Shown here: one piece after another, positions 471-46,250 of the stretch
Layout: each line of letters starts with the position of its first letter
How positions within the stretch are numbered: position 1 is the first letter of the stretch
Source of the DNA: Streptomyces sp. NBC_00425
GTDB lineage: Bacteria > Actinomycetota > Actinomycetes > Streptomycetales > Streptomycetaceae
Assembly (NCBI RefSeq): GCF_036030735.1
Contig: NZ_CP107928.1
Span: forward strand, 7,130,001 to 7,194,000
Length of the DNA stretch: 64,000 nt
Direction of reading: 5' to 3'
Program-made: the position numbers and the translations under genes
The notes under the pieces: model-generated
Told to the model about the DNA's origin: nothing
What the model saw: the letters and a program-made list of their open reading frames with translations, nothing else
The model's database searches: none

Positions 471-1571
471 TCAGCGGGTCTCGTGGACGCGGCGGGCGGC
501 GCCGTCGGGCGAGGCGGACTGGCCGGGGAGGCGCCCCGGAGGCAGCGCCGCGTCCGCCGTGTTGACCCGGGGAAGCGCGTACGCGTGCTCCTTGGACAGC
601 CAGCGGATCATCTGCTCGCGGACCGCGACGCGCACCGTCCAGATGTCGTCGGCGTCCTTGGCCGTGACCAGGGCCCTCACCTGCATGGTGTTGGGCGTGG
701 TGTCGGTGACGTCGAGGCCGCAGGCGCGCCCGTCCCAGGCCGGGCACTCGCGCAGGATGTCGCGCAGCTTCTCGCGCATCGCCTCCACGGGCGCCGCGTG
801 GTCGACGTGCCAGTAGACGATGCCCGTCATCTGGGGGGTGCCGCGCGACCAGTTCTCGAAGGGTTTCGAGGTGAAGTACGACACGGGCATCGTGATCCGG
901 CGCTCGTCCCAGGTCCGCACGGTCAGGAAGGTCAGGGTGATCTCCTCGACCGTGCCCCATTCGCCGTCCACCACGACCGTGTCGCCGATGCGCACCATGT
1001 CGCCGAAGGCGATCTGCAGGCCGGCGAACAAGTTGCTCAGCGTCGACTGTGCGGCCACACCGGCGACGATGCCGAGAATCCCGGCCGAGGCCAGCAGCGA
1101 GGCGCCCGCCGCGCGCATGGCGGGGAACGTCAGCAGCATCGAGGCCGCGGCGACCACGCCGACGACGGCCGAGACCACCCGCATGATCAGCGACACCTGG
1201 GTCCGCACCCGCCGGACCCGGGCCGCGTCGCGGTGCATGCGCGCATAGCGCGAGTACGACGTCTCGACGACCGCCCCCGCGATGCGGATCACCAGCCAGG
1301 CCGCCGCGCCGATCAGCACCAGGGTGAGGGTGCGGCCGATGCCCACCCGGTGGTCGTCCAGCAGTTGCGCCTCGTCGTAGGACCCTCTGAGCATCGCCGC
1401 GCACAGCACCAGCTGGTACGGGATGCGGCCACGGCGCAGCAGACCCCACAGCGGGGTCTCCGGGTGCCGTCGGTCGGCCTTGGACAGCAGGCGGTCGGTG
1501 GCCCAGCCGATGAGGACGGTCAGCATCACCGAGCCGCCCACCACGATCACGGGGCGGAGCAGGTTCTCCAT
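471..1571 (-). CDS. MscS-family mechanosensitive ion channel
   Basis: 366 aa. Hydrophobic helices lie at about residues 7-26, 80-100 and 125-150. A Gly/Ala-rich segment at about 155-190 (SLLASAGILGIVAGVAAQS, then LSNLFAGLQIAFGD) matches the pore-lining TM3 of MscS. The following segment (VVVDGEWGTVEEITLTFLTV, then RTWDERRITMPVSYF) is the MscS beta domain. The family opens under membrane tension to release osmolytes during hypo-osmotic shock. The ATG at 1571 begins directly with a membrane helix. Only 98 bases separate it from the divergent hydrolase gene, so the two promoters share that gap. Confidence 0.9.
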   Translation of the reverse strand: MENLLRPVIVVGGSVMLTVLIGWATDRLLSKADRRHPETPLWGLLRRGRIPYQLVLCAAMLRGSYDEAQLLDDHRVGIGRTLTLVLIGAAAWLVIRIAGAVVETSYSRYARMHRDAARVRRVRTQVSLIMRVVSAVVGVVAAASMLLTFPAMRAAGASLLASAGILGIVAGVAAQSTLSNLFAGLQIAFGDMVRIGDTVVVDGEWGTVEEITLTFLTVRTWDERRITMPVSYFTSKPFENWSRGTPQMTGIVYWHVDHAAPVEAMREKLRDILRECPAWDGRACGLDVTDTTPNTMQVRALVTAKDADDIWTVRVAVREQMIRWLSKEHAYALPRVNTADAALPPGRLPGQSASPDGAARRVHETR

Positions 1572-1669
1572 GCCTTCGAACGTAACCGAGTCGGCGGGGT
1601 CCTGAACCTGTGACTTGTGTGAAGAGGCGCACGCCGGGGGCTTTCGGTGCGGGCTGGCACCATGGGCGC

Positions 1670-2239
1670 ATGAACATCATGCTCTTTCACTCGACCTATG
1701 GTCCGCGGCCGGCGGTGCGCGCCGCGGCGGACCGGCTGCGTGCCGCCGGGCACGAGGTCTGGACGCCGGACCTCTTCGGGGGGCGCACGTTCGACACGGT
1801 CGAGGAGGGCATGGCGTACAACGAGGAGATCGGCAAGGACGAGCTGCTGAAGAGAGCCGTGCTGGCCGCCGCGCCCTACTCCGAGCGCGGGCTGGTCTAC
1901 GCCGGGTTCTCGCTCGGCGCGTCGATCGCCCAGACCCTCGCCCTCGGCGACGACAAGGCGCGCGGCCTGCTCCTTCTGCACGGCACCTCGGACCTCGCGC
2001 CGAACGTCTCGGTGGACGACCTCCCGGTGCAACTGCACGTCGCGGAGCCGGACCCGTTCGAGACCGACGACTGGTTGAGCGCCTGGTACCTCCAGATGGG
2101 CCGGGCCGGCGCCGATGTGGAGGTCTACCGGTACGCGGGCGCCGGGCACCTGTACACCGACCCCGGGCTGCCCGACTACGACGAGGAGGCGGCCGAGGCC
2201 ACCTGGCGGGTGGCGCTCGGCTTCCTCGAGAGCCTGTAG
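1670..2239 (+). CDS. Dienelactone-hydrolase-family protein
   Basis: 189 aa from the ATG at 1670. It has an alpha/beta-hydrolase fold of the dienelactone hydrolase family. An early strand reads NIMLFHSTYG, the nucleophile elbow is GFSLGAS (Ser, where classical dienelactone hydrolase has Cys), an acidic residue lies in the EPDPFETDDW stretch, and the catalytic His is in GAGHLY. The substrate is unknown; a small esterase or lactonase role is inferred. There is no Shine-Dalgarno sequence. A -10-like CACCAT at 1658-1663 lies six bases before the ATG, which suggests a leaderless transcript. Its 3' end converges on phoD with a 12-base gap. Confidence 0.85.
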   Translation: MNIMLFHSTYGPRPAVRAAADRLRAAGHEVWTPDLFGGRTFDTVEEGMAYNEEIGKDELLKRAVLAAAPYSERGLVYAGFSLGASIAQTLALGDDKARGLLLLHGTSDLAPNVSVDDLPVQLHVAEPDPFETDDWLSAWYLQMGRAGADVEVYRYAGAGHLYTDPGLPDYDEEAAEATWRVALGFLESL

Positions 2240-2251
2240 CGGCTGAACGAC

Positions 2252-3934
2252 CTAGACGGGGTCGTACGTCCGTTCCACCTTCTGGGTGCCGCTGCGGGTG
2301 CGGTAGGAGCGCTGCCAGGAGGAGGTCGCGGTGGCGCTGGTGCGGTCGGACAGCACGTAGTAGTCCATCTGCGCGCGTTCGGCGGTGATGTCCAGGACGC
2401 CGTAGCCGTGCCGGTCCGTGTCGACGAAGTGGACGTGCCGGTTCGCGGCCCGGATGACGGGCGAGGCGATCGCGGTGAGCGTGCCCTCGGGCACCTTCAC
2501 GATGTCGTCGAGGTTGTCGGAGGTCACCGAGGTGACCACGAACTCGGTGGCGGCCGAGGCCGACAGCGGGTACGTCCCGGCGTCCACCGGCACGTCGTTG
2601 GCCCACGCCATGTGGATGTCACCGGTGAGGAACACGGTGTTGCGGATGGCGTTCGCGCGCAGGTGGGCGAGGAGCTCGCGGCGGTCGTCGGTGTAGCCGT
2701 CCCACTGGTCGGTGTTGAGGCCGAGGCCGTCCTGCGGCAGGCCGAGCAGCTTGGCGAGCGGCTTGAACAGGTCCGCGGAGAGCGAGCCGATCACGAACGG
2801 CGAGATCATCACCGAGTTGCCGACCAGCCGCCAGGTGGTGTCCGACGCCTTCAGCCCGGCCTTCAGCCAGTCCAGCTGGGCGCGCCCGGTGATCGTGCGG
2901 TCCGGGTCGTCGACCGTGCCGTTGCCGACCTTGACCTGCTGGGAGCGGAAGGAACGCAGGTCCAGCAGGGAGAGATCGGCGAGCTTGCCGAAGCGCAGCC
3001 GGCGGTAGGTGGTGCCGGCGATCGCGGGCCGGACCGGCATCCATTCGAAGTAGGCCTGCTTCGCGGCCGCCTGACGGGCCGACCAGGCGCCCTCCGCGCC
3101 TTCGGTGTGGTTCTCGGCGCCGCCCGACCAGGTGTCGTTGGCGAACTCGTGGTCGTCCCATATCGCGATGACCGGGGCCTTCACGTGCAGAGCCTGAAGG
3201 TCGGGGTCCGTCTTGTACTTGCCGTGCCGGGTGCGGTAGTCGGCGAGCGTGAGGATCTCGTGGGTGGGCGCGGTCTGCCGTACGACGGCGCCGCGGGCTC
3301 CGTACTCGCCGGTGCCGTACTCGTAGATGTAGTCCCCGAGATGCAGCCAGGCGTCCAGGTCGCCGCGGGCCGCGAGGTGACGGTACGAGGAGAAGTAGCC
3401 GGCCTCCCAGTTGGCGCAGGAGACCACGCCGAAGCGCAGACCCGTGACGGCGGCGTCCGCCGCGGGCGCGGTGCGGGTACGCGCCACCGGGGTCCGGGCG
3501 TCGCCCGCCGAGAAGCGGAAGTAGTAGTCGGTGGCCGGCTGGAGGCCGCGGATGTCGGCCTTGACGGTGTGGTCGGAGGCAGCGGTGGCGGTGGTCGAGC
3601 CCTTGTTGACGACGTTCGTCAGCGCCCTGTCCGTGGCGACGACCCAACTCACCTCGGTGTCCGGGCCGAGTCCGGAGCCCGGTGTCGCCTCGGCGGCGGG
3701 CGTCACCCTGGTCCACAGCAGGATGCCGTCGGGCAGCGGGTCGCCGGAGGCGAGACCGTGCAGGAACGCCGGGGTCTCCGCGGCGGCGCGGGCCGGGAGC
3801 GCGGCGGCGAGCGGTCCGGCCAGGACGACGGTCGCCGCCGCGGCCTTGACGACCGTACGGCGGCGCGGGGAGAGGGAGTCGGGGCGCTCTGACGGGACGT
3901 CGGCGCTCGTGGAGGATCTGTATCGACTGGTCAC
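2252..3934 (-). CDS. phoD: Secreted alkaline phosphatase/phosphodiesterase, PhoD family
   Basis: 560 aa from the GTG at 3934; a TTG two codons upstream (3940) is also possible. The N-terminus carries a twin-arginine signal (SPRRRTVV, then a hydrophobic Ala-rich stretch ending [11 protein letters not shown]), so export by Tat is expected. Next is the PhoD N-terminal beta domain, then the metallophosphatase core with its ligand motifs: [36 protein letters not shown] and [11 protein letters not shown]. PhoD enzymes release phosphate from mono- and diesters outside the cell and bind Ca/Fe. A -10-like TAATCT (3943-3948 on this strand) eight bases before the GTG favours that start, with a leaderless message. 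Confidence 0.93.
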
Positions 3935-3942
3935 GGGCAATC

Positions 3943-3999
3943 AGATTACTGACGAGTACGACCGAGAGCGGGCGAACCGGAAAGAAGTTCGCCCGCTCT
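3943..3999 (-). promoter_or_regulatory. phoD promoter with a 13-bp perfect inverted repeat
   Basis: On the phoD strand a TAATCT hexamer (3943-3948) lies 8 bases before the GTG. Just upstream, 3965-3999 is a perfect inverted repeat: agagcgggcgaac, a 9-base spacer, then its exact complement. One arm contains GTTCGCC, one base from the GTTCACC core of Streptomyces PHO boxes, and sits about where an activator replaces a -35. Control by PhoP under phosphate limitation is inferred from the gene's function and this position. The repeat could instead bind another dimeric regulator. Confidence 0.45.
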
Positions 4000-4156
4000 T
4001 CGACTGCGCGTCGGACGCCGGTCCCCGAGTCCGCAGGGACGGGCGTCGCGGCCGGTCTTCCGCCGCTGCGCCAGGCGGCCGTTGTCGCCCCCGGAGGCCC
4101 GCCGACCCCCTCCGGTCGCCCTCTCGCACTCCCCCCGGAAATGCTCCGGGCAGAAC

Positions 4157-4190
4157 GTGACGGCCCGCCGAGGAACTGACGGGCCGTCAC
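4157..4190 (-). terminator. Hairpin downstream of the small remnant
   Basis: Perfect 11-bp inverted repeat, gtgacggcccg (4157-4167) with cgggccgtcac (4180-4190) and a 12-base loop. It lies 12 bases beyond the stop codon of the minus-strand remnant at 4202, the expected place for its terminator. Confidence 0.6.
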
Positions 4191-4201
4191 GAATGTCGGA
4201 G

Positions 4202-4411
4202 TCAGCGGATGTTCACCGACCCGGAGGACAGGGACGGGTTCTCGGAGAAGATCCAGCCCTTGACCTGGCCGCTGCCCACCCGTCCGTACACCCAGAAGTT
4301 CCCGGACGTGTTGTAGACCCCGCACCATGCGTGGAACGCCGTGCCGGGGAGGCCGACTCGTTCGAGGGCGACGGCGGTCCGGTTTCCGGGCCGGGAAAAG
4401 CGGAATGCCAC
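4202..4411 (-). pseudogene. Probable remnant of a small secreted protein
   Basis: The frame encodes up to 69 residues. The last ~50 look like real protein: WCGVYNTSGNFWVYGRV, then GSGQVKGWIFSENPSLSSG, with aromatic residues and alternating strands like the small beta or SH3-like domains of Streptomyces secreted proteins. The only upstream start (GTG 4411) falls inside the hairpin that ends the neighbouring gene. There is no signal peptide and no ribosome-binding site. I read it as the 3' end of a gene whose front is lost. Chance open frame is the alternative, but the hairpin immediately after the stop argues for a former gene. Confidence 0.4.
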
Positions 4412-37836: not shown

Positions 37837-37863
37837 CGGCCGTCGCTGCGACGACGCGTACGA

Positions 37864-37900
37864 CGACGAGGGCGCCCGGTGAACCCGGGCGCCCTCGTCG
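37864..37900. terminator. Bidirectional terminator between lgt and the CitE-like gene
   Basis: Perfect 16-bp stem: cgacgagggcgcccgg (37864-37879), loop tgaac, then ccgggcgccctcgtcg (37885-37900). It serves two converging transcription units, lgt and the seven-gene operon ending at 37932. Confidence 0.92.
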
Positions 37901-37931
37901 TGCGACCGCGGGTCGCGGCCTCGCCGGCCGG

Positions 37932-38762
37932 TCAGTCCCGGCCGGCCAGGGCCAGCGTGCGGTGCGCGGCCGCCACCACCGCGGCGTCGACGAACCGTCC
38001 GTCCGGGAGGGCCTGGGCGCCCCGTTCGGTGATGGCCGCCTTCACGATCGTCTCGGCGTCCTCCAGCTCCTGCTGGGTCGGCAGGTAGGCCTGTTCGATG
38101 ATCGGGAGCTGCCGGGGGTGGATGGCGGCGCGTCCGAGGAATCCGAGGGTGCGGCCGTGGGCGCAGCTGGTGGCCAGGCCGTCCAGGTCGCGGATGTCGG
38201 GGTGGACCGACTGGGGCGGGGGCGCCAGCCCTGCGGCCCGGGCGGCGACGACGACCCGGGAGCGGGACCAGTCGAGGCCCGCGTCGTGGCGGACGCCCAG
38301 ATCCGCTCGCAGGTCCGCCTCGCCGAGGGCGATGCCGCGCAGGGAGGGGTGGGCGCGGGCGATGGCGTAGGCGTGTTCCACGCCGAGGGCGGTCTCCAGC
38401 AGGGCGTGCAGGGGCGTGGCGCCGCGATCGCTCCGGGGCACGCTCTCGGCGACCCGGGTGATCTGGTGCGGGGCCGTCACCTTGGGCAGGCGCAGACCGC
38501 AGACGCCGGGGAGGGCGGCCACGGTGCGCAGGTCCGCCGCGGCGTAGGGGGTGTCCAGGGAGTTCACCCGGACGTGGACCGGTACCGGCTGGGGCTCCGA
38601 AAGACGTTCGGCGGTGGCCGCACGCGCGTACTCCTTGCGGTCCGGGGCGACCGCGTCCTCCAGGTCGACGATGACGACGTCGGCGCCGCAGGCGAGGGCC
38701 TTGGTGACCGTCTGCGGGCGGTCACCGGGAACGTAGAGCCAGGTCAGTGGGGGTTTCTTCAC
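37932..38762 (-). CDS. CitE/HpcH-type CoA-ester lyase
   Basis: 276 aa from the GTG at 38762. Barrel of the HpcH/HpaI aldolase - citrate lyase beta family. It shows LTWLYVPGDRPQTVTKAL at the start, ADVVIVDLEDAVAPDRKEYAR (acidic metal-site residues), VHVRVNSLDTPYAAADL (Arg that binds the acyl group), PLHALLETALGVEHAYAIA and the metal Asp in ALGEADLRADLG. Characterised relatives cleave malyl-, methylmalyl- or citramalyl-CoA. It is the last gene of the seven-gene operon, overlapping the CoA-transferase by 4 bases. Confidence 0.9.
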   Translation of the reverse strand: MKKPPLTWLYVPGDRPQTVTKALACGADVVIVDLEDAVAPDRKEYARAATAERLSEPQPVPVHVRVNSLDTPYAAADLRTVAALPGVCGLRLPKVTAPHQITRVAESVPRSDRGATPLHALLETALGVEHAYAIARAHPSLRGIALGEADLRADLGVRHDAGLDWSRSRVVVAARAAGLAPPPQSVHPDIRDLDGLATSCAHGRTLGFLGRAAIHPRQLPIIEQAYLPTQQELEDAETIVKAAITERGAQALPDGRFVDAAVVAAAHRTLALAGRD

Positions 38763-40015
38763 AGGGCACCCGCCTCGCGCAGGGTGCTCAGCTCGTCCGC
38801 GGTCAGGCCCAGCTCGGTCAGGACGGCGTCCGTGTCGGCGCCGTGCGGGCGGCCGGCCCAGCGGATCGCGCCGGGGGTCGCGGAGAGCCGGAACAGGACG
38901 TTCTGCATCCGGATCCGGCCCAGCTCCGGGTCGTCCACCGCGGTGACGGTGTCCAGGGCCTGGTACTGGGGGTCCGACAGCACGTCCCGGACGTCCTGGA
39001 CCGGGGCGATCGCCGCCTCCGCCTTCTCGAACGCCGCGAGGACGTCGGTGCGGGTGTGCCGGGCGATCCAGGAGCCGACCGCCTCGTCGAGGACGTCGGT
39101 GTGGGCGGCCCGCTCGGCGCCGGTGGCGAACCACGGCTCGTCGATCAGCTCCGGGCGGCCGACGAGCCGCATCACCCGTTCCGCGACCGACTGCGCCGAC
39201 GTCGAGACGGCGACCCAGTCCCCGTCGGCCGTGCGGTAGGTGTTGCGCGGGGCGTTGTTGGCGGACCGGTTGCCGGTACGGGCCTGGACGTAGCCCAGCT
39301 GGTCGTACCAGAGGGGCTGGGGGCCGAGGACGGTGAGGATGGGCTCGATGATCGCCATGTCGACGACCTGGCCCTCGCCGGTGCGGTCGCGGGCGGTGAG
39401 GGCCGTCATGACGGCATAGGCGGTGGCCAGGCCGGCGATCGAGTCGGCCAGGCCGAAGGGCGGGAGAGTGGGCGGGGCGTCCGGTTCGCCGGTGATCGCC
39501 GCGAAGCCGCTCATCGCCTCCGCGAGCGTGCCGAAGCCGGGGCGGTGCGCGTAGGGGCCGAACTGGCCGAAGGCGGTGACCCGGGTGAGGACCAGACGGG
39601 GGTTCGCCGACGACAGCTCCTCCCAGCCGAGGTCCCACTTCTCCAGGGTGCCGGGACGGAAGTTCTCGATGATCACGTCGGCCGTGGCGGCGAGCTGCAG
39701 CAGGGTGTCGCGGCCGCCCGGCGTGGACAGGTTCAGGGTGATCGTGCGCTTGTTGCGGCCGAGGAGCTTCCACCACAGGCCCACGCCGTCCTTGGACGGG
39801 CCGTGCCCGCGGGAGGGGTCGGGGCGCTCGGGGTGTTCGACCTTGACGACGTCCGCGCCGAAGTCGCCGAGCAGGGTGGCGGCGAGAGGTCCCGCGAACA
39901 GGGTGGCCAGGTCGAGGACCCGGACGCCGTGCAGGGGAGCGGCCGGCCCGGCCACGGGGGGCGTGGTCCCGACGCGTTCGGTCGTGCGAGGTTCGGTCGT
40001 GCGGGGTTCGGTCAT
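38759..40015 (-). CDS. CaiB/BaiF family (type III) CoA-transferase
   Basis: 418 aa from the ATG at 40015. Family III CoA-transferase: PLHGVRVLDLATLFAGPLAA at the start, LGDFGADVVKVEHPERPDP, KRTITLNLSTPGGRDTL, VIIENFRPGTLEKWDLGWEEL, FGQFGPYAHRPGFGTLAEAM (the region with the catalytic Asp in this family is VDMAIIEPIL or nearby). It moves CoA between carboxylic acids; the acid is unknown. Its first codons contain a 15-bp repeat giving TTEPR-TTEPR-TTER. It overlaps the ribokinase and the CitE-like gene by 4 bases each. Confidence 0.92.
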   Translation of the reverse strand: MTEPRTTEPRTTERVGTTPPVAGPAAPLHGVRVLDLATLFAGPLAATLLGDFGADVVKVEHPERPDPSRGHGPSKDGVGLWWKLLGRNKRTITLNLSTPGGRDTLLQLAATADVIIENFRPGTLEKWDLGWEELSSANPRLVLTRVTAFGQFGPYAHRPGFGTLAEAMSGFAAITGEPDAPPTLPPFGLADSIAGLATAYAVMTALTARDRTGEGQVVDMAIIEPILTVLGPQPLWYDQLGYVQARTGNRSANNAPRNTYRTADGDWVAVSTSAQSVAERVMRLVGRPELIDEPWFATGAERAAHTDVLDEAVGSWIARHTRTDVLAAFEKAEAAIAPVQDVRDVLSDPQYQALDTVTAVDDPELGRIRMQNVLFRLSATPGAIRWAGRPHGADTDAVLTELGLTADELSTLREAGAL

Positions 40016-40905
40016 GAGGCGTACTGCGTCTCGATCTCGGAGCGGTACGGCATCGACGCGCAGGCGCCGGGACGCTGGACGGACAGCGCGGCCGCGGCCG
40101 CCGCCCAGGCCAGGGCCTCCCGTACGGGCCGCTTCTCGCCCAGCGCCACCGCGAGGGCGCCGACGAACGTGTCGCCCGCGCCGGTGGAGTCCACGGCGGT
40201 GACGCGTGGAGCGGGCACGGTGAGGGGTTCGGCGCCCCGGGCGGCGTAGAGGCTGCCGGCCGCGCCGAGGGTGATGACGACCTCGGGGACGCTGTCCAGC
40301 AGGACGGCGGCCGCCTCGTGCGGGTCGGTGCGGCCGGTGAGCGCGGTCGCCTCGTGCTCGTTGGGCACCAACAGGTCGGTGGCGTCGAGGAGTTCCGGCG
40401 GCAGGGGCCGGGCTGGGGCGGGGGTGAGGATCGTGCGCACGCCGTGCCTGTGGGCGGCCCGGGCACCGGCGACGACCGCGGCCAGGGGCACTTCGAGTTG
40501 CAGCAGGAGCGCGTCCGCGGAGGCGATGAGGCCTTCGTCGCCGGGGGCGAGATGGTCGACGGTGCCGTTGGCGCCGGGCACCACGACGATCGCGTTGCCG
40601 CCGTCGTCGTCCACCACGATGTGCGCGGTGCCGGAGGGGGCCTCGACGGTGCGCAGGTGGTCGGTGTTGACGCCCGCGTGCTCGAGCGTGGAGCGCAGCC
40701 GGGCGCCGAAGGAGTCGTTGCCGACCGCCCCGATCATCGAGACGGCGCCGCCGGCGTGGGCGGCGGCGGTCGCCTGGTTGGCGCCCTTGCCGCCGGGGAG
40801 GGTGCGGAACTCCCGTCCCGTCACGGTCTCCCCGCGCTGCGGGGGCTTCGCCACGTAGGCGACGAGGTCCATGTTCGTGCTGCCGAGCACGACGATGTCG
40901 GTCAT
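40012..40905 (-). CDS. rbsK: Ribokinase (PfkB family)
   Basis: 297 aa from the ATG at 40905. It phosphorylates D-ribose, or a related pentose, with ATP. PfkB signatures: LGSTNMDLVAYVAKPPQRGE, the Gly-rich TLPGGKGANQATAAAHAGG, and the C-terminal TAVDSTGAGDTFVGALAVAL with the catalytic Asp and anion hole. The NEHEATALTG helix is typical of ribokinases. No ribose ABC transporter or LacI regulator accompanies it. It is coupled by 4-base overlaps to an ADP-ribosylglycohydrolase-family gene and a CoA-transferase, which suggests that ribose is released inside the cell. Confidence 0.92.
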   Translation of the reverse strand: MTDIVVLGSTNMDLVAYVAKPPQRGETVTGREFRTLPGGKGANQATAAAHAGGAVSMIGAVGNDSFGARLRSTLEHAGVNTDHLRTVEAPSGTAHIVVDDDGGNAIVVVPGANGTVDHLAPGDEGLIASADALLLQLEVPLAAVVAGARAAHRHGVRTILTPAPARPLPPELLDATDLLVPNEHEATALTGRTDPHEAAAVLLDSVPEVVITLGAAGSLYAARGAEPLTVPAPRVTAVDSTGAGDTFVGALAVALGEKRPVREALAWAAAAAALSVQRPGACASMPYRSEIETQYAS

Positions 40906-42281
40906 GGGCGGGATGCCTCCCGAGGGATGAGGGACCGGGTGAGGTGGGCGAGGGCGTCGAAGCCGACGCCGTCGAAGTCGGCGACGGAGGTGGCGAGCCG
41001 GTTCTTGAGGGGGGCCGTCCAGCGGTCGGGGAGGGCGGCCGGGCCGCCGGTGAGCAGGGCGGCGACGCCGCCCGCGGTCGCGCCGTCGGAGTCGGTGTCC
41101 CAGCCTCCCGACACGGCACGGCAGATGGACCCGGCGAAGTCGCCGTCCGCGTGGGCGAGGGCGGCGGCGATCAGGGCCGTGTTGGGGACGGCGTGCACCC
41201 AGTGGGCGCTCCGGTGGGCGACGTGGAGTTCGTCGACGACGGTGTCGAAGTCGGCGTGCTCCCCGGCGAGCCGGATCGCGTGGGTGACGGCGACGGCGAG
41301 CCGGGAGCGGGGCGGGACCACCGACAGGCCGGTGTGCAGGCAGGTGTGCACGTCGAGGGCGCCGGTCGCGGCCGCGGCGACGACGGCCGCCGTGAACATC
41401 GCCGCGTAGACGCCGTTGCCGGTGTGTGTGAGGACGGCGTCGCGGTGCGCCTGCTCGGCTGCGGCAGCCGGGTCGCCGGGGTTGGTCCAGCCGTGCACGT
41501 CGGCGCGGATCAGGGCGCCGATCCACTCCCGGAAGGGGTTGCGGTGGCGGGCGGTGTGCGGGGGTTCGACGCCGCAGAGGAGGTTGCGGTAGGCGACGCG
41601 TTCGGCGGTGAAGGTGCGGCCCGCGGGGAGTTCGTCGAGCCAGAGCCGGGCCACGTCGGCGGTGGTGAAGCCCCTGCCGTGGCGCTGCAGCAGCAGGAGG
41701 TTGAGGAGGGGGTAGTTGAGGTCGTCGTCCTCGGGCATGCCGTCGATGTTCTCGGCCAGCGAGGTGGGCGCCGAGCGGCGGTTCCACGGGTGCTCCTCGA
41801 GGAGGGGGCCGGGAACCCCCCGGGCGGTGAAGTAGCCGTCCAGGGGCCAGTTTCCGGCGGCCCGCGCCAGCCGGCGGACGGCGTCCAGGGGAAGCTTCTC
41901 CACCGGTTTGCCCAGGAGGCAGCCGGCGGCCCGCCCCAGCCAGGCGGCTTCCAGGCGGGCCTGCGAGGGCGCCGGGGTTCTCGTGCCGCCCGGCCGGCCC
42001 GGCCACCGGGGGCAGAGCGCTCTGATCTTCTCCAGTTCGGTCGGCTCGTCCTCGGCCAGTCTGCTGGGCAGGTCCGCCAGTTCGTCGAGCAGGTCGTCGG
42101 CGAGGAGCCGGAGATAGCCGGAGGCCCGTTGCCCGGACGCGCCGGCGCGGGGCGGCGCGTCGTGGCCGCCGGCCGCTCGCCAGCGGGCGGCGACCGCCCA
42201 CGGCTCCCGGCCGTCCTCGGCCGCCTGGCGCAGTTCGTGGCCGAGCAGGTCCTCGGGCTGGACCCAGGTCAGTCGGAGCAT
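40902..42281 (-). CDS. ADP-ribosylglycohydrolase-family protein A (large type)
   Basis: 459 aa from the ATG at 42281. A ~110-residue N-terminal helical domain (LTWVQPEDLLGHELRQAAED...) precedes the all-helical DraG/ARH fold, which starts RLEAAWLGRAAGCLLGKPVEK. The first metal motif is EDDDLNY (in IDGMPEDDDLNYPLL) in place of the usual TDDT. The second is intact: GGWDTDSDGATAGGVAALLTG. Both binuclear Mg sites therefore look present. The family cleaves ADP-ribose-protein bonds or other N/O-ribosides; the substrate here is unknown. It overlaps protein B by 13 bases and rbsK by 4. Confidence 0.88.
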   Translation of the reverse strand: MLRLTWVQPEDLLGHELRQAAEDGREPWAVAARWRAAGGHDAPPRAGASGQRASGYLRLLADDLLDELADLPSRLAEDEPTELEKIRALCPRWPGRPGGTRTPAPSQARLEAAWLGRAAGCLLGKPVEKLPLDAVRRLARAAGNWPLDGYFTARGVPGPLLEEHPWNRRSAPTSLAENIDGMPEDDDLNYPLLNLLLLQRHGRGFTTADVARLWLDELPAGRTFTAERVAYRNLLCGVEPPHTARHRNPFREWIGALIRADVHGWTNPGDPAAAAEQAHRDAVLTHTGNGVYAAMFTAAVVAAAATGALDVHTCLHTGLSVVPPRSRLAVAVTHAIRLAGEHADFDTVVDELHVAHRSAHWVHAVPNTALIAAALAHADGDFAGSICRAVSGGWDTDSDGATAGGVAALLTGGPAALPDRWTAPLKNRLATSVADFDGVGFDALAHLTRSLIPREASRP

Positions 42282-43456
42282 CCGGAGCCTCCGGGGGCGC
42301 CTCCGAGTGCGCGGAACGCCCGCTCGTGGTCGCGGCGGCGCTCGACGTCGCGGTGGAAGACCTCGCGGGCGACCTCGGTGAGCGTCGCCGCCGGCTGCCA
42401 CAGGTCGAGGCGGCTGGCCTCGGCGACCTGCTTCGACCAGTCCTCGGGGACCGGTGAGCCCAGAGCGCCGGCCACCGCGCCCGCCATCGTGGCGATCGAG
42501 TCGCAGTCGCGGCCGTAGTTCACGGAGCCGAGGACCGCCCGGCGGTAGTCGCCGCCCGCCGCCAGCACCATCCCCAGGGCGACCGGGAGTTCCTCGATCG
42601 CGTGCAGCCGGGAGGGGCGGCGCGCGCCGAGCGAGGGCCGCCGGTAGTCGGGTCCCACCGTGTCGTAGGGCGCCACCGACTCCCTGAGCGGGACGAGCGC
42701 GGACTCGACGTCGCCGTGCCGGGCCGCCTCCTCGCAGACCTTCTCGATCGCCGTGCGCGTGCCGTCCTTCGCCAGCGCCAGACAGGCCGTCACCACCGAC
42801 TCCGCGGTCGCGTCGGGCGTGCACGCGGCCGCCACCGCCGCGGCGAAGACACCCGCCGCCTCCCGGCCGTAGGACGACTGGTGGGCGCCCGCGACGTCCA
42901 GCGCCTCGGCGTACGCTCCCGCCGGGTCGGCCGCGTTGACCAGGCCCACCGGGGCCATGTACATCGCCGCGCCGCAGTTGACGATGTTGCCGACGCCGGC
43001 TTCCCGCGGGTCCACATGGCCGTAGTGGAGCCGTGTGACCAGCCACTTCTCCGCCAGGAAGATCCGGTGCAGGGGGAGCGCCTCGGCTTCCAGTTCGGGG
43101 ATCCAGCGGGGCGTCGTCATCAGGTCCGGGACGAGGTGGCCGGCGACCGCGTAGGCGTCCAGGTGGTCGCGGACCGTGGCGTAGACCCTGATCAGCGCAT
43201 GGGTCATCAGGGTGTCGTCGGTGACGTGGCCGTCGCCCTTGTGGTACGGCGCGATGGGGCGGGCGGTGCGCCAGTCGTCGCCGTGCCAGGGCCCGACGAC
43301 GCCGTGCACGCGGCCGCCGTGGCGTTCGAGGATCTGTTCCGGGGTGTAGCCCTCGACGGGGCCGCCGAGGGCGTCGCCCACGGCCGCGCCGACCAGGGCG
43401 CCGGTGATGCGCTCCTCCAGGGTTGCCCCGTTGCTTTCTTCTGCTTTGGGCGTCAT
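42269..43456 (-). CDS. ADP-ribosylglycohydrolase-family protein B
   Basis: 395 aa from the ATG at 43456, which has AGGAGG 12 bases upstream; the ATG at 43468 abuts that site and is less likely. It has a full DraG/ARH domain: ERITGALVGAAVGDALGGPVE, the first metal motif VTDDTLMTHALI and the second YGRDCDSIATMAGAVAGAL. All metal ligands expected from the family are present, so it should be an active hydrolase. A central segment reads GNIVNCGAAMYMAPVGLVNAA. It is the second of the four paralogues, counting down the coordinates, and lies 8 bases from gene C. Confidence 0.9.
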   Translation of the reverse strand: MTPKAEESNGATLEERITGALVGAAVGDALGGPVEGYTPEQILERHGGRVHGVVGPWHGDDWRTARPIAPYHKGDGHVTDDTLMTHALIRVYATVRDHLDAYAVAGHLVPDLMTTPRWIPELEAEALPLHRIFLAEKWLVTRLHYGHVDPREAGVGNIVNCGAAMYMAPVGLVNAADPAGAYAEALDVAGAHQSSYGREAAGVFAAAVAAACTPDATAESVVTACLALAKDGTRTAIEKVCEEAARHGDVESALVPLRESVAPYDTVGPDYRRPSLGARRPSRLHAIEELPVALGMVLAAGGDYRRAVLGSVNYGRDCDSIATMAGAVAGALGSPVPEDWSKQVAEASRLDLWQPAATLTEVAREVFHRDVERRRDHERAFRALGGAPGGSGCSD

Positions 43457-43464
43457 GCCCCGAA

Positions 43465-44838
43465 TCATCCTCCTGGTGGGGCCGGTTGTGCGGTTTCCAG
43501 GAGCCCGGCGAGTTCCACCAGATCGGTGCCGGTGAGCCGCGGGAGTGCGCAGCCGGAGAGGACGCGGCAGCTGTCGCGCCACGCCTCGGGGATCGCGGCG
43601 GCGCCGCCGAGCGCCCCGGTGAGCGCGCCCGCCAGGGCGGGGGCCGAGTCCGCGACCCGGGAGAGGCAGGCCGCGGCCGGCACCGCCTCGCCGATGCGGC
43701 CGCCGGACGCCGTCGCGAGGGCCAGCGCCACCGGCACGGTCTCCGCCGCGGCGATGCCGTAGCTGTAGACGTGGTCGACGATCTGGTGTTCCAGCAGCGG
43801 GACGAGCGCGAACGCGCTCGGTGCGCCGCGGGCCAGGTCCAGCGCGTGCCGGGCGTTGCGGCCGATCTCCGTGTGTGCGGGGAGTTCGCCGAGCGCCGCC
43901 GTCGTGCAGGCCTCGACGTCCGCTCCGGCCAGGGCCAGCGCCAGCGCCGCGGCCATCGCCCGGGCGCCGTGCACGCCGTCGCCGTCCTGGGTGTAGCGGG
44001 CGTCGAACTCGGCGAGCCCGGCGGCGGCCCGGGGATCGCCGGCGTGCGCCACCGCGAGGACGCAGGCGCGCACGCAGGCCGCGTCGTCGAAGTAGTGCGG
44101 GTTGTCGTGGCCGGTGGCGGGGGGCCGCAGTCCGGCGACGAGATTGCCCAGTCCGGCGCGGACGGAGATGCGGGCGCGCAGGGGCAGGACGGCGGACTCG
44201 ACCTCCGGCGCGCGGTCGGCCGCCGCCGCGACCTCACTGGCGATCGCGTTCCAGGCGAGGTCGATGGCGGCGCGCATCCGGCGATCTCGGCCGAGGTCGC
44301 CGAGGGCGGTGTCATCGCCGGCCCGCAGCACCGCCTCGGCGGCGAACGCCGCCCACTCGGCGTCGTCGGAGGGGCCGAGCCGGAGGGGTTCGGGGGGCTG
44401 GTTCAGGGCGATGGGGACGGGCAGGGTGGTCGTCGCGTTGTGTTCGGCGAAGGTGTCGAGCTCCCTGGTCAGACGGCGGGTCCAGTCCGGCATCCGGGCG
44501 GCGCGATGGCGGGCGGCGGGCCACCCGGCGGCGTCGCCCGCGGCCAGGCCCAGCAGCAGGCCCTCGATGCGCCGCGCGTGCCGCGGGCGGGCGGGTCTCG
44601 CGGGTTCGGCGTCGCCGGCGGGCCTGTCGGTCCGGCCCGCCGGTCCGGCGTGGTGGCGTCCGGCCGCTCCGCTGCGGCTCTCGCGGTCGGGTGCGGACGG
44701 GCCCTGCGGGGCGCGATCGGCCTCGCCGTCGGGGGCCGCGGGCGCGCGGGGCGGCGCCGTGACCGCGATGCCCGCCGCGCTCTCCGTGGCCGCCGCGGCC
44801 GTCATCGTCTCGTCGTCCCAGGGGGCGGGCGGTGTCAT
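43465..44838 (-). CDS. ADP-ribosylglycohydrolase-family protein C with an altered active site
   Basis: 457 aa from the ATG at 44838 (GGAGG seven bases upstream). A disordered Ala/Pro/Arg-rich start (~90 residues) precedes RIEGLLLGLAAGDAAGWPA. The first metal motif, normally TDDTE, is SDDAEW. The second, normally GRDxDT, reads SRVADSAPALAGALTGALGG: the first Asp is replaced by Val and the Thr by Ser. The fold is otherwise kept, with no frameshift. It may be a catalytically weak or regulatory paralogue. It overlaps gene D by 4 bases. Confidence 0.85.
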   Translation of the reverse strand: MTPPAPWDDETMTAAAATESAAGIAVTAPPRAPAAPDGEADRAPQGPSAPDRESRSGAAGRHHAGPAGRTDRPAGDAEPARPARPRHARRIEGLLLGLAAGDAAGWPAARHRAARMPDWTRRLTRELDTFAEHNATTTLPVPIALNQPPEPLRLGPSDDAEWAAFAAEAVLRAGDDTALGDLGRDRRMRAAIDLAWNAIASEVAAAADRAPEVESAVLPLRARISVRAGLGNLVAGLRPPATGHDNPHYFDDAACVRACVLAVAHAGDPRAAAGLAEFDARYTQDGDGVHGARAMAAALALALAGADVEACTTAALGELPAHTEIGRNARHALDLARGAPSAFALVPLLEHQIVDHVYSYGIAAAETVPVALALATASGGRIGEAVPAAACLSRVADSAPALAGALTGALGGAAAIPEAWRDSCRVLSGCALPRLTGTDLVELAGLLETAQPAPPGG

Positions 44839-45980
44839 GGGCAGGCCTCCGCGCTGTCGTTCGCCGTCGCCGTCGCCGTCACGGTCGCCGCAGTCGTCGT
44901 CGCCGTCGTGGCAGCTGTCGTCGCCGCTGTCAGGGCGAAGGCCGTCGGGTCCGGGTGGGAGAGCCGTCCCGGGCTCATCAGGATCGGCACGACGTCCGCC
45001 CCGACGACGCCCTCGCCCCACTTGCCGCCCTCGCCCGGCACCAGCAGTTCGGCCACGTCCAGCACGTGATGGCCCGCCATCGAGGGCAGGCAGGTGCCCC
45101 GCGCCGGGCCGATGGCCGCCGCCCAGTCCTGCGGGATCGCCGAGACCCCCCGGGTGGCGCCGGCCAGGGCGCCCGCCACCGCCGCCGTGGTGTCCGCGTC
45201 GCGGCCCATGTTCACCGCCGTGAGGACCGCCTCGCGGAAGTCGCCCTCGGCTGCCGCGTAGGCGCCGAACGCGAGGGCGACGGCCTCGGGCGCCAGATCG
45301 GTCCACGGGTAGCCGCCGACGACGACGGCCGAGCGCACGGCCCGTTCGCCGCGGTGGGCCGCCGCTGCCGCCCGGCGCAGGGAACGAGCCGTCCAGGAGT
45401 CCTCGGGGACCACCGCGAGAGCCGAGGCGACCACCGCGACCGGCGGCGCCCCGGCCATCGCCGCGGCCACTCCCGCCGCGACCGCCTGCCCGCCGTAGAT
45501 GCCCTCGCCGTCGTGGCTCACCGCGCCGTCGATCGCGACCAGCCGGGCGGCCTCCGCCGGGCGGCCCGCGGCGAAGACGCCGAAGGGGGCCGCGCGCATC
45601 GCCAGGCCGTCGCTCCAGGCGTGCCGGTGCTGCGCCGAGATGGGCGCCGCGAGGCCGCGGCGGAGGTTCTCCAGGGTGCCGCGCTCGCTGAATCCCGCGC
45701 CCCGGAAGGGGCCTTCGTCCCGGTCGGCGATCCACTGGTGCCAGGCCGACTCGACGTGGGCCGGGGTGAGCGCGGAGCCGTGCCGGGCGAGCAGCAGGCC
45801 GGAGAAGATCGCGTACTCGGTGTCGTCCGTGCCGGCCGGCCGGTCGGCGACGTAGCCGGTGATGCGGCCCCAGCGGGCGCGGATCTGCGAGGGCTTCATG
45901 TTCTCGGCGGGGGCGCCCAGGGCGTCTCCGACGGCGAGGCCGAGCAGGGCGCCGCGGGCTCTTTCACGGATCGTCGCCAT
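44835..45980 (-). CDS. ADP-ribosylglycohydrolase-family protein D, first gene of the operon
   Basis: 381 aa from the ATG at 45980, with GGAGGAGG about seven bases upstream. Complete DraG/ARH domain: RARGALLGLAVGDALGAPAE, first metal motif AGTDDTEYAIFSGLLL, second MGRDADTTAAVAGALAGATRG. All ligands are present. The C-terminus has a ~30-residue Thr/Ala/Val tail (TAATTAATTATTTAATVTA) from a GTC/GCC triplet-rich stretch, unlike the rest of the protein. It heads the seven-gene operon; its promoter lies in the 270-base gap shared with the metal transporter. Confidence 0.9.
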   Translation of the reverse strand: MATIRERARGALLGLAVGDALGAPAENMKPSQIRARWGRITGYVADRPAGTDDTEYAIFSGLLLARHGSALTPAHVESAWHQWIADRDEGPFRGAGFSERGTLENLRRGLAAPISAQHRHAWSDGLAMRAAPFGVFAAGRPAEAARLVAIDGAVSHDGEGIYGGQAVAAGVAAAMAGAPPVAVVASALAVVPEDSWTARSLRRAAAAAHRGERAVRSAVVVGGYPWTDLAPEAVALAFGAYAAAEGDFREAVLTAVNMGRDADTTAAVAGALAGATRGVSAIPQDWAAAIGPARGTCLPSMAGHHVLDVAELLVPGEGGKWGEGVVGADVVPILMSPGRLSHPDPTAFALTAATTAATTATTTAATVTATATANDSAEACP

Positions 45981-46201
45981 AGGCGTCCTCCTCCACCATG
46001 GCTCCGCTCGGGCGCGGAACCGTCTGCGGATGTGTCCCACCATCGGCGGTTGACCCGAGCCTCGAAGCCCTTCATGTCACCCGGTCGACATCTGTGCGGA
46101 TAGCCGATCGAATGAGCGCTCGAAGGTAAAAGCGCAGGTTAGCCCAGCCTTTCCTTGCTGGCGGAGCGGAATGGGGAGGCGTATCTTCGCGTTGTAGGAA
46201 C

Positions 46202-46216
46202 TTAGAATCAGTCTAA
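46202..46216 (+). promoter_or_regulatory. Fur-type 7-1-7 box upstream of VIT1
   Basis: TTAGAATCAGTCTAA: seven bases, a central C, then seven bases that are the reverse complement at six of seven positions. This is the 7-1-7 pattern of Fur-family sites. It is 35 bases before the start of a metal transporter. Confidence 0.55.
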
Positions 46217-46218
46217 AC

Positions 46219-46237
46219 TTAGCTTTGGCTCAGCTTA
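46219..46237 (+). promoter_or_regulatory. DmdR1/IdeR-like iron box upstream of VIT1
   Basis: TTAGCTTTGGCTCAGCTTA agrees at 15 of 19 positions with the Streptomyces iron box as I remember it (TTAGGTTAGGCTCACCTAA). It lies 14 bases before the VIT1 GTG, where a bound repressor would block transcription or a bound activator would be unusual. Confidence 0.55.
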
Positions 46238-46250
46238 CTGGGGGATCTCC

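Follow-up and report, generated by a model that had tools for sequence, protein, structure and literature searches.

A conserved Streptomyces operon with four ADP-ribosylglycohydrolase paralogues as a probable enzyme half of a LacI-CUT1 furanoside utilization system

Here we report a comparative genomic analysis of a seven-gene operon from Streptomyces sp. NBC_00425 (genome 9.8 Mb), located in a 64,000-nucleotide window that covers positions 7,130,001-7,194,000 of contig NZ_CP107928.1. The operon encodes four consecutive proteins of the ADP-ribosylglycohydrolase (ARH) family related to DraG, a ribokinase (RbsK), a family III CoA transferase (CaiB), and a CoA-ester C-C lyase of the citrate/citramalyl-CoA lyase superfamily (CitE). 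Homologous operons in other actinobacterial families start with a LacI-family regulator and a CUT1 importer, and the seven genes are probably the enzyme half of such an import and catabolic operon for a furanoside, likely a riboside-organic acid conjugate. We are highly confident that these genes constitute a single conserved catabolic unit; it is likely that the pathway starts from an imported furanoside, and somewhat less likely that the sugar is ribose.

All seven genes are on the minus strand of the window, in the order ARH1 (44835-45980, 381 residues), ARH2 (43465-44838, 457 residues), ARH3 (42269-43456, 395 residues), ARH4 (40902-42281, 459 residues), RbsK (40012-40905, 297 residues), CaiB (38759-40015, 418 residues), and CitE (37932-38762, 276 residues, GTG start). 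From ARH1 to CitE their junctions measure -4, +8, -13, -4, -4, and -4 bases, and the strand, the gene lengths, and the five overlaps with one 8-base gap are as first described in the original prediction from this DNA.

Results

The fuller operon in other actinobacteria

A class-wide search of 394 genomes with ARH3 as query (E-value threshold 1e-30) scored at most four candidates per genome, so that single absences may be misses; ARH3 was a better query than ARH4, which had matched 16 of 396 genomes in an earlier phylum-wide search with the same number of candidates scored. ARH3 was found in 62 of the 394 genomes, and all 33 loci outside Streptomyces were examined. The typical gene order at these loci is LacI, two permeases, binding protein, ARH1-ARH2-ARH3-ARH4, ribokinase, often an extra gene, CaiB, and CitE. 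LacI and both CUT1 permeases occur at 31 of the 33 loci, the two loci without LacI being contigs that start inside the operon, and the binding protein occurs at 30 (31 with the L177 protein, which at 25% identity falls below the counting cut-off). ARH3 is present at all 33 loci by construction, ARH4 at 32, ARH2 at 29, ARH1 at 28, ribokinase at 26 (one of the seven loci without it is on a truncated contig), the extra gene at 18, and CaiB and CitE at 29 each.

The 29 loci with linked CaiB-CitE span six families and include a 1.3 Mb genome of the Nanopelagicaceae. This family (f99) was named from the ARH3 of L177, which is identical to a protein so named, and another family (f93) includes Jiangella, the extra-gene product of L180 being identical to a Jiangella alkaliphila protein. 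The leanest loci are the two of the Nanopelagicaceae, which read LacI-CUT1-ARH3-ARH4-extra-CaiB-CitE (L176) and LacI-CUT1-ARH3-ARH1-ARH2-CaiB-CitE (L177). The presence of the operon at 33 other actinobacterial loci and on alphaproteobacterial plasmids led us to drop the idea of a Streptomyces-only oddity. The extra gene encodes a GH13-like barrel protein; its family (P0128, from L180 and 17 other loci) combines this barrel with an FGE-type domain and is also listed for Micromonospora and Pseudonocardia.

Candidate operators of the LacI regulators were scanned at 31 loci and in Nonomuraea gerenzanensis, which has a LacI-CUT1-ARH operon and no CaiB-CitE at that locus. Two or three palindromes of the GGAAACGTTTCC and GTAAACGTTTAC type were found upstream of LacI in 27 of the 32 loci and one in three more, against a background expectation of 0.004 per 330 bp, and the nearest pair is 24-44 bases apart. 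A third copy is present in L173, L181, L187, and L188, in the last three towards a divergent esterase-like gene; this gene also occurs in L180, and its product matched PF00756 in both loci scanned (L180 and L188). At another locus, L172, a GH38 alpha-mannosidase gene (1224-4295) is divergent from the LacI gene of the operon. The LacI protein of N. gerenzanensis scored best against the ribose repressor RbsR, below the cut-off of this model (191 vs 382 bits), and the CUT1 binding protein had low-similarity matches to many binders of sugars and oligosaccharides.

Four ancient ARH paralogues, one of them degenerate

The original prediction noticed four different proteins of the DraG/ARH fold in a row, and all four indeed match PF03747 far above its gathering score of 26.2, with 208 bits for ARH1, 113 for ARH2, 164 for ARH3, and 162 for ARH4. 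ARH1 and ARH3 share 31% identity, ARH1 and ARH2 share 34% over 230 residues, and ARH3 and ARH4 match over 61 residues only; the four proteins are ancient paralogues, and a recent tandem duplication of one hydrolase was dropped because of this divergence. All of them missed the equivalog cut-offs of the characterized hydrolases, with best scores of 80.0 vs 337.05 bits for DraG (TIGR02662) and 51.8 vs 490 bits for Tri1 (NF041672).

ARH1 aligns with the solved DraG structure 2woe at E26, T51-D52-D53, and D261-x-D263, which we take to be the positions of the DraG metal ligands. The Glu and all four Asp residues are invariant in 104 of 104 ARH1 orthologues, and the ligands are retained in 117 of 118 ARH3 orthologues. 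ARH4, which carries an N-terminal extension of about 100 residues, retains the Glu, an E-D-D-D motif in place of T-D-D, and the D-x-D motif in all ungapped rows of its alignment. By these motifs the metal site is intact in ARH1, ARH3, and ARH4, which are predicted hydrolases.

In ARH2, the first Glu and the first Asp of D-x-D are missing in 111 of 111 orthologues, in Streptomyces and four other families alike; the Glu position holds mostly Ala, otherwise Gly, Val, Arg, X, or a gap. Nearly all 111 rows still have the last Asp and the Asp pair in the middle. The start of ARH2 is uncertain because its first approximately 85 residues are of low complexity. ARH1 and ARH2 are adjacent wherever both are present, and among loci with room for both, ARH2 stands alone only in L191, which is truncated, and in L072, which is decayed. 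The simplest reading of these alignments is that ARH2 is a conserved pseudoenzyme partner of ARH1, and the two proteins may form a complex.

Ribokinase, CoA transferase, and lyase

RbsK, a PfkB-family protein, passes the equivalog cut-off of the ribokinase model TIGR02152 (309.4 vs 299.65 bits) and falls below that of a second model, PRK11142 (264.6 vs 341 bits). Another ribokinase-like gene, whose product is 47% identical, is present elsewhere in the NBC_00425 genome. CaiB matches CoA_transf_3 (PF02515, 409 bits), and its D191, presumably the catalytic Asp, is invariant in 114 of 114 orthologues. CitE matches HpcH_HpaI (PF03328, 127 bits), and its residues D33, E35, D36, R65, and E123 are invariant in 114 orthologues; its nearest solved chains are 8khl and 9nzb, an acyl-CoA lyase beta chain being the top match among solved structures. 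CitE scored below the models of the citramalyl-CoA lyase RipC (NF038242, 157.2 vs 375 bits) and of citE (TIGR01588, 158 vs 443.4 bits).

Conservation within Streptomyces

For the Streptomyces-type operon we analyzed the best 80 of 538 confirmed ARH4 matches in a collection of one genome per species, of which 79 are named Streptomyces and one is 'Actinobacteria bacterium OV320'. ARH3, ARH4, and CaiB are present in all 80 loci, CitE in 79, ARH2 in 78, and ARH1 in 71; all six non-kinase genes occur together in 71, while eight other loci are cut off by the end of a contig, and L072 is decayed. The six genes lie between lgt on one side and the VIT and gltB genes on the other, and the retention of the gene order across these 80 relatives indicates that it does not reflect chance. 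The ribokinase gene is present in 42 of the 80 loci, including a fragment by length in L054 and not counting a remnant in L044. We therefore dropped ribokinase as a defining member, and with the gene being optional, ribose is not fixed as the released sugar.

All seven genes have a median ratio of nonsynonymous to synonymous substitution rates (dN/dS) of 0.16-0.30 in 60 pairs per gene. Across all loci, a crude check flagged no more than three genes with a stop within the matched part, namely ARH1 of L149, ARH2 of L034, and ARH3 of L175, and a decaying cluster was dropped as an explanation. The decayed copy of Streptomyces sp. CoH27 (L072, 8134-12861) has a fragmented CaiB and a partial ARH2, and ARH1 and CitE were not found in it.

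Fate of the importer in Streptomycetaceae

The original prediction remarked that the operon has no transporter or dedicated regulator, which holds at the window locus, where neither a LacI regulator, nor LacI-type operators, nor an importer was found. The conclusion drawn from it, that the substrate may be made inside the cell, is not supported, because homologous operons start with LacI and a CUT1 importer, as in 31 of the 33 relatives and at two Streptomycetaceae loci outside Streptomyces, and many Streptomyces carry the importer elsewhere in the genome. Among 12 Streptomycetaceae loci examined around a binding-protein match, 10 are an unlinked permease-permease-binding protein trio without LacI; of the two from other genera, L227 has all eleven genes linked, and L228 has ten linked, with a kinase-like gene past the LacI end.

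The class-wide sample contains 40 Streptomyces, of which 29, including NBC_00425 and one with a partial match (G665), have ARH3. The binding protein was found in 20 of these 29 genomes and in none of the 11 without ARH3 (p = 7e-5, ignoring relatedness). Up to eight candidates per genome were scored for the binding protein, so that here too a single absence may be a miss, and up to three in one further search; the NBC_00425 genome was scored in full. LacI-type operators were found in none of 70 Streptomyces regions upstream of ARH1, and an ATGTC-N8-GACAT inverted repeat in the Streptomyces promoter was dropped as an operator candidate, being exact in only 8 of the 80 loci. Streptomyces forms one fully supported clade in the ARH3 tree, which was rooted at the midpoint for drawing only and in which L166 and L191 are labelled importer-bearing though their contigs start inside the operon. 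Since the importer is linked in other families, the simplest history is one in which Streptomyces lost this linkage, with the root of the tree not fixed.

Related operons outside these lineages

On alphaproteobacterial plasmids, we examined 11 of 20 records with an ARH3 match. All 11 rhizobial loci have the arrangement LacI-CUT1-ARH3-like-UgpC, with a second ARH of about 700 residues in 10, CaiB in 6, CitE in 5, and both in 5. In Sinorhizobium sp. B11 the order is LacI, importer, two ARH genes, UgpC, CoA transferase, and lyase, while in Agrobacterium tumefaciens HAMBI 105 a ribokinase gene replaces the last two, directly downstream. Locus L238 of this set has several interrupted genes. The approximately 700-residue proteins (L232, 10219-12318, and its kin) have about 400 C-terminal residues without a Pfam match.

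In Mycolicibacterium arabiense and Deinococcus aetherius, relatives of ARH4 lie together with ribokinase and CUT1 genes, and one relative adjoins a ribokinase gene in the actinobacterial locus L131. Altogether, four other lineages (L131, L150, L152, and L242) have a ribokinase-family gene next to ARH genes, and other ARH4 relatives (L129, L151, and L153) lie with genes for a transporter, a regulator, or a distant kinase, not with the full set. Relatives of CaiB were also seen on a Rhodococcus gordoniae plasmid (L235), near genes of dihydroorotase-family, cyclase, CoA ester lyase, and MmgE/PrpD proteins, and on a Haloferax gibbonsii plasmid (L237), near HMG-CoA lyase and isopropylmalate dehydratase genes.

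According to the original prediction, the genes would not be one pathway if the hydrolase genes and the ribokinase, CoA-transferase, and lyase genes were not conserved together in related genomes or if transcripts split between them. The conservation half of this test was passed, because the hydrolase genes are linked to the CoA-transferase and lyase genes in other families, at 29 of 33 actinobacterial loci, and on rhizobial plasmids (6 of 11 for CaiB and 5 of 11 for CitE). The linkage strengthens the one-pathway idea, and the absence of ribokinase from 38 of 80 and 7 of 33 loci weakens the part of it that made this kinase a fixed member.

CaiB-CitE pairs away from the ARH operon

Four genomes of family f91 and N. 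gerenzanensis have a close paralogous CaiB-CitE pair at another place in the genome (L209-L212 and L246; a weaker pair in L213 was left out of the counts). The unlinked pair adjoins a GntR/FCD-type regulator gene in all five, and a DctM TRAP permease gene comes next in three (one locus stops at CitE). In Pseudomonas aeruginosa, the products of ict-ich-ccl convert itaconate to pyruvate and acetyl-CoA, and the transporter IctPQM is of the TRAP type (PMC12599236). Because the unlinked CaiB-CitE/TRAP loci resemble these itaconate genes, the analogy suggests that the acid of the pathway may be a C4-C6 di- or hydroxy-acid.

Surroundings of the window operon

A GGAGGAGG site precedes the ARH1 start at 45980. 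The predicted strong terminator 3' of CitE is seen as a minus-strand hairpin at 37863-37901, between the operon and the convergent lgt gene, with -52.3 kcal/mol, a z-score of -8.9, and none of 200 shuffles equally stable, though no T run was found after it. One flank of the operon holds LGT and tryptophan synthase alpha, and the other the VIT-family gene VIT1 and glutamate synthase. The divergent promoter region between ARH1 and the VIT-family gene (45981-46250, no strand assigned) has no LacI-type operator and contains blocks more than 95% conserved across 70 upstream regions, from the window and 69 Streptomyces-type loci; one of them, GGCTGGGCTAACCTGC, resembles an iron box and may control the VIT gene. 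A profile search of the whole genome gave 10 matches to PF03747 in total. Two genes matching PF03747, with equal scores, lie near both chromosome ends (G000:C1:25541-26350 and 9778963-9779772), which suggests terminal inverted repeats.

Discussion

Proposed pathway and alternative explanations

Gene order, its conservation, the linkage to importer and regulator in relatives, the operators, and the intact active-site motifs are directly observed. Three further points are inferred: a furanosidase role of the ARH proteins on a small molecule, ribose as the sugar, and a common parent compound of the acid and the sugar. In the proposed pathway, a furanoside would enter the cell, most likely in the form of a riboside linked to an organic acid; there, ARH1 (with the degenerate ARH2), ARH3, and ARH4 would hydrolyse furanosyl bonds. 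A ribokinase, encoded in the operon or elsewhere in the genome, would phosphorylate the ribose, CaiB would transfer CoA to the freed acid, and CitE would cleave the CoA ester to acetyl-CoA (or propionyl-CoA) and a 2-oxo acid. There is a little under an even chance that this is an undescribed pathway common to actinobacteria of soil, Nanopelagicaceae of fresh water, and plasmids of rhizobia, where ARH-fold proteins, three of them active and one a conserved pseudoenzyme paired with ARH1, serve as intracellular furanosidases on an imported riboside-like organic-acid conjugate, and the acid is processed via CoA transfer and citramalyl-CoA-type cleavage.

Several observations weigh against this proposal. 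CaiB and CitE are members of their superfamilies that missed all NCBIfam equivalog cut-offs, and no member of the operon is known to act on a riboside. Of the 80 Streptomyces-type loci, 38 have no ribokinase, and neither do the two Nanopelagicaceae loci. Five of the 11 rhizobial loci have no CaiB and six no CitE, with ribokinase in that place in one, and CaiB-CitE is away from the ARH operon in N. gerenzanensis and in the f91 genomes of L162, L165, and L167 (L164, the fourth of this family, is truncated). An importer match is lacking in 9 of the 29 ARH3-bearing Streptomyces, and no importer orthologue was found in the NBC_00425 genome, where the best match has 29% identity.

The optional kinase could mean that the substrate is another furanose-type or acylated compound, or that the ARH proteins cut a non-glycosidic bond, with the kinase as an occasional add-on. 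This is unlikely, and it would fit the absence of ribokinase noted above, including seven of 33 loci outside Streptomyces (one truncated), the divergent PF00756 esterase of the Jiangella-type loci with a third operator on its side in L181, L187, and L188, the presence of the GH13-like barrel protein at 18 of the 33 loci, and the low similarity of the binding protein to many sugar and oligosaccharide binders. However, the window kinase scores above a ribokinase cut-off, ribokinase-family genes stand beside ARH genes in L131, L150, L152, and L242, and the second ribokinase-like gene of the NBC_00425 genome could substitute. It is quite unlikely that one repressor controls two co-travelling pathways, a riboside pathway (importer, ARH proteins, RbsK) and an unrelated acid pathway (CaiB, CitE). 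The CaiB-CitE pairs beside a GntR/FCD-type regulator, three of the five also having a TRAP permease gene, speak for such independence, as do the rhizobial loci, which after UgpC carry CaiB-CitE, CaiB alone, ribokinase, or none of these; yet CaiB-CitE is linked to the operon at 29 of 33 actinobacterial loci in six families, and both genes are present at 5 of 11 rhizobial loci.

An internal origin of the substrate in this lineage, with the importer lost as unneeded, is very unlikely. It would account for the missing importer orthologue in NBC_00425, for purifying selection on the genes in Streptomyces, and for the absence of LacI-type operators in 70 of 70 Streptomyces upstream regions, but 20 of the 29 ARH3-bearing Streptomyces retain the binding protein, 10 of 12 Streptomycetaceae loci are the unlinked trio, and another ABC importer could substitute in NBC_00425. 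A true reversal of ADP-ribosylation on proteins, nucleic acids, or metabolites, the other genes recycling ribose and acyl groups, is highly improbable. From gene order, neighbours, and gene numbers, we take SCO2028-SCO2031 of S. coelicolor to be ARH1-ARH4, with SCO2028 as ARH1 and SCO2030 as ARH3, and by its gene number we take SCO5809 to lie outside this operon. The family and its metal motifs are shared with DraG, and S. coelicolor has characterized ADP-ribosyltransferases (PMC9411070). The family in this species includes ADP-ribosyl hydrolases, because SCO5809 is active on phosphate-linked ADP-ribose (PMC11833690). Against this explanation, the relatives are linked to a sugar importer and LacI, the scores are far under the DraG (80 of 337 bits) and Tri1 (52 of 490 bits) cut-offs, and for purified SCO2028 and SCO2030 no activity could be detected on U-alpha-ADP-ribose, the single substrate concerned (PMC13036486).

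Implications for ARH annotation

It has been called surprising how many putative ADP-ribosyl hydrolases S. coelicolor has (PMC5087735). Of the eight DraG/ARH homologues listed for this species in PMC9411070, the operon context offers an answer for four, and one that can be tested. If imported furanoside catabolism is the right reading, half of the listed homologues would be catabolic enzymes unrelated to ADP-ribosylation, digesting a nutrient instead of reversing a modification, and many ADP-ribosylglycohydrolase gene annotations would be misleading; an ARH-fold furanosidase activity would then await assay. The interest of the operon is that four putative ADP-ribosyl hydrolases would move into nutrient catabolism, with a substrate common to soil and freshwater bacteria. 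Such a compound would have to be widespread in soils and lakes without having been recognised as a nutrient so far, and the linked binding protein would offer a route to identifying it by a ligand screen.

Comparison with known systems

The original prediction knew of no described system with this exact gene set, and the literature that we searched, with thin coverage of subscription papers, agrees, containing no description of the seven-gene set or of its substrate; the four homologues themselves are in print as uncharacterized. SCO2028-SCO2031 are named among DraG/ARH homologues of S. coelicolor (PMC9411070, and PMC5087735 without SCO2031). Like the window genes, they are four consecutively numbered DraG/ARH homologues; unlike here, they are treated as ADP-ribosyl hydrolases, and the accessible text of PMC9411070 leaves the neighbouring genes unmentioned.

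The E. coli yegTUV operon resembles the present system in combining a transporter, the ARH homologue YegU, and the PfkB kinase YegV in one repressed operon, whose product functions are not established (PMC10819704). It differs in having a single ARH protein, an MFS nucleoside-type symporter, a GntR-type regulator, and no CoA-dependent steps. With the itaconate genes of P. aeruginosa, the common feature is a CitE-type lyase linked to a TRAP transporter (PMC12599236), whereas the window operon has no visible hydratase gene, is coupled to ARH hydrolases, encodes a CitE below the RipC cut-off, and has relatives linked to sugar import. In comparison with LacI-CUT1 carbohydrate operons, the hydrolases here belong to the DraG/ARH family, a CoA transferase and a CoA lyase stand at the end, and the window copy is without LacI, operators, and importer; the relatives in other lineages, in contrast, share with these operons a LacI regulator with twin operators, two permeases, a binding protein, intracellular hydrolases, and often a sugar kinase.

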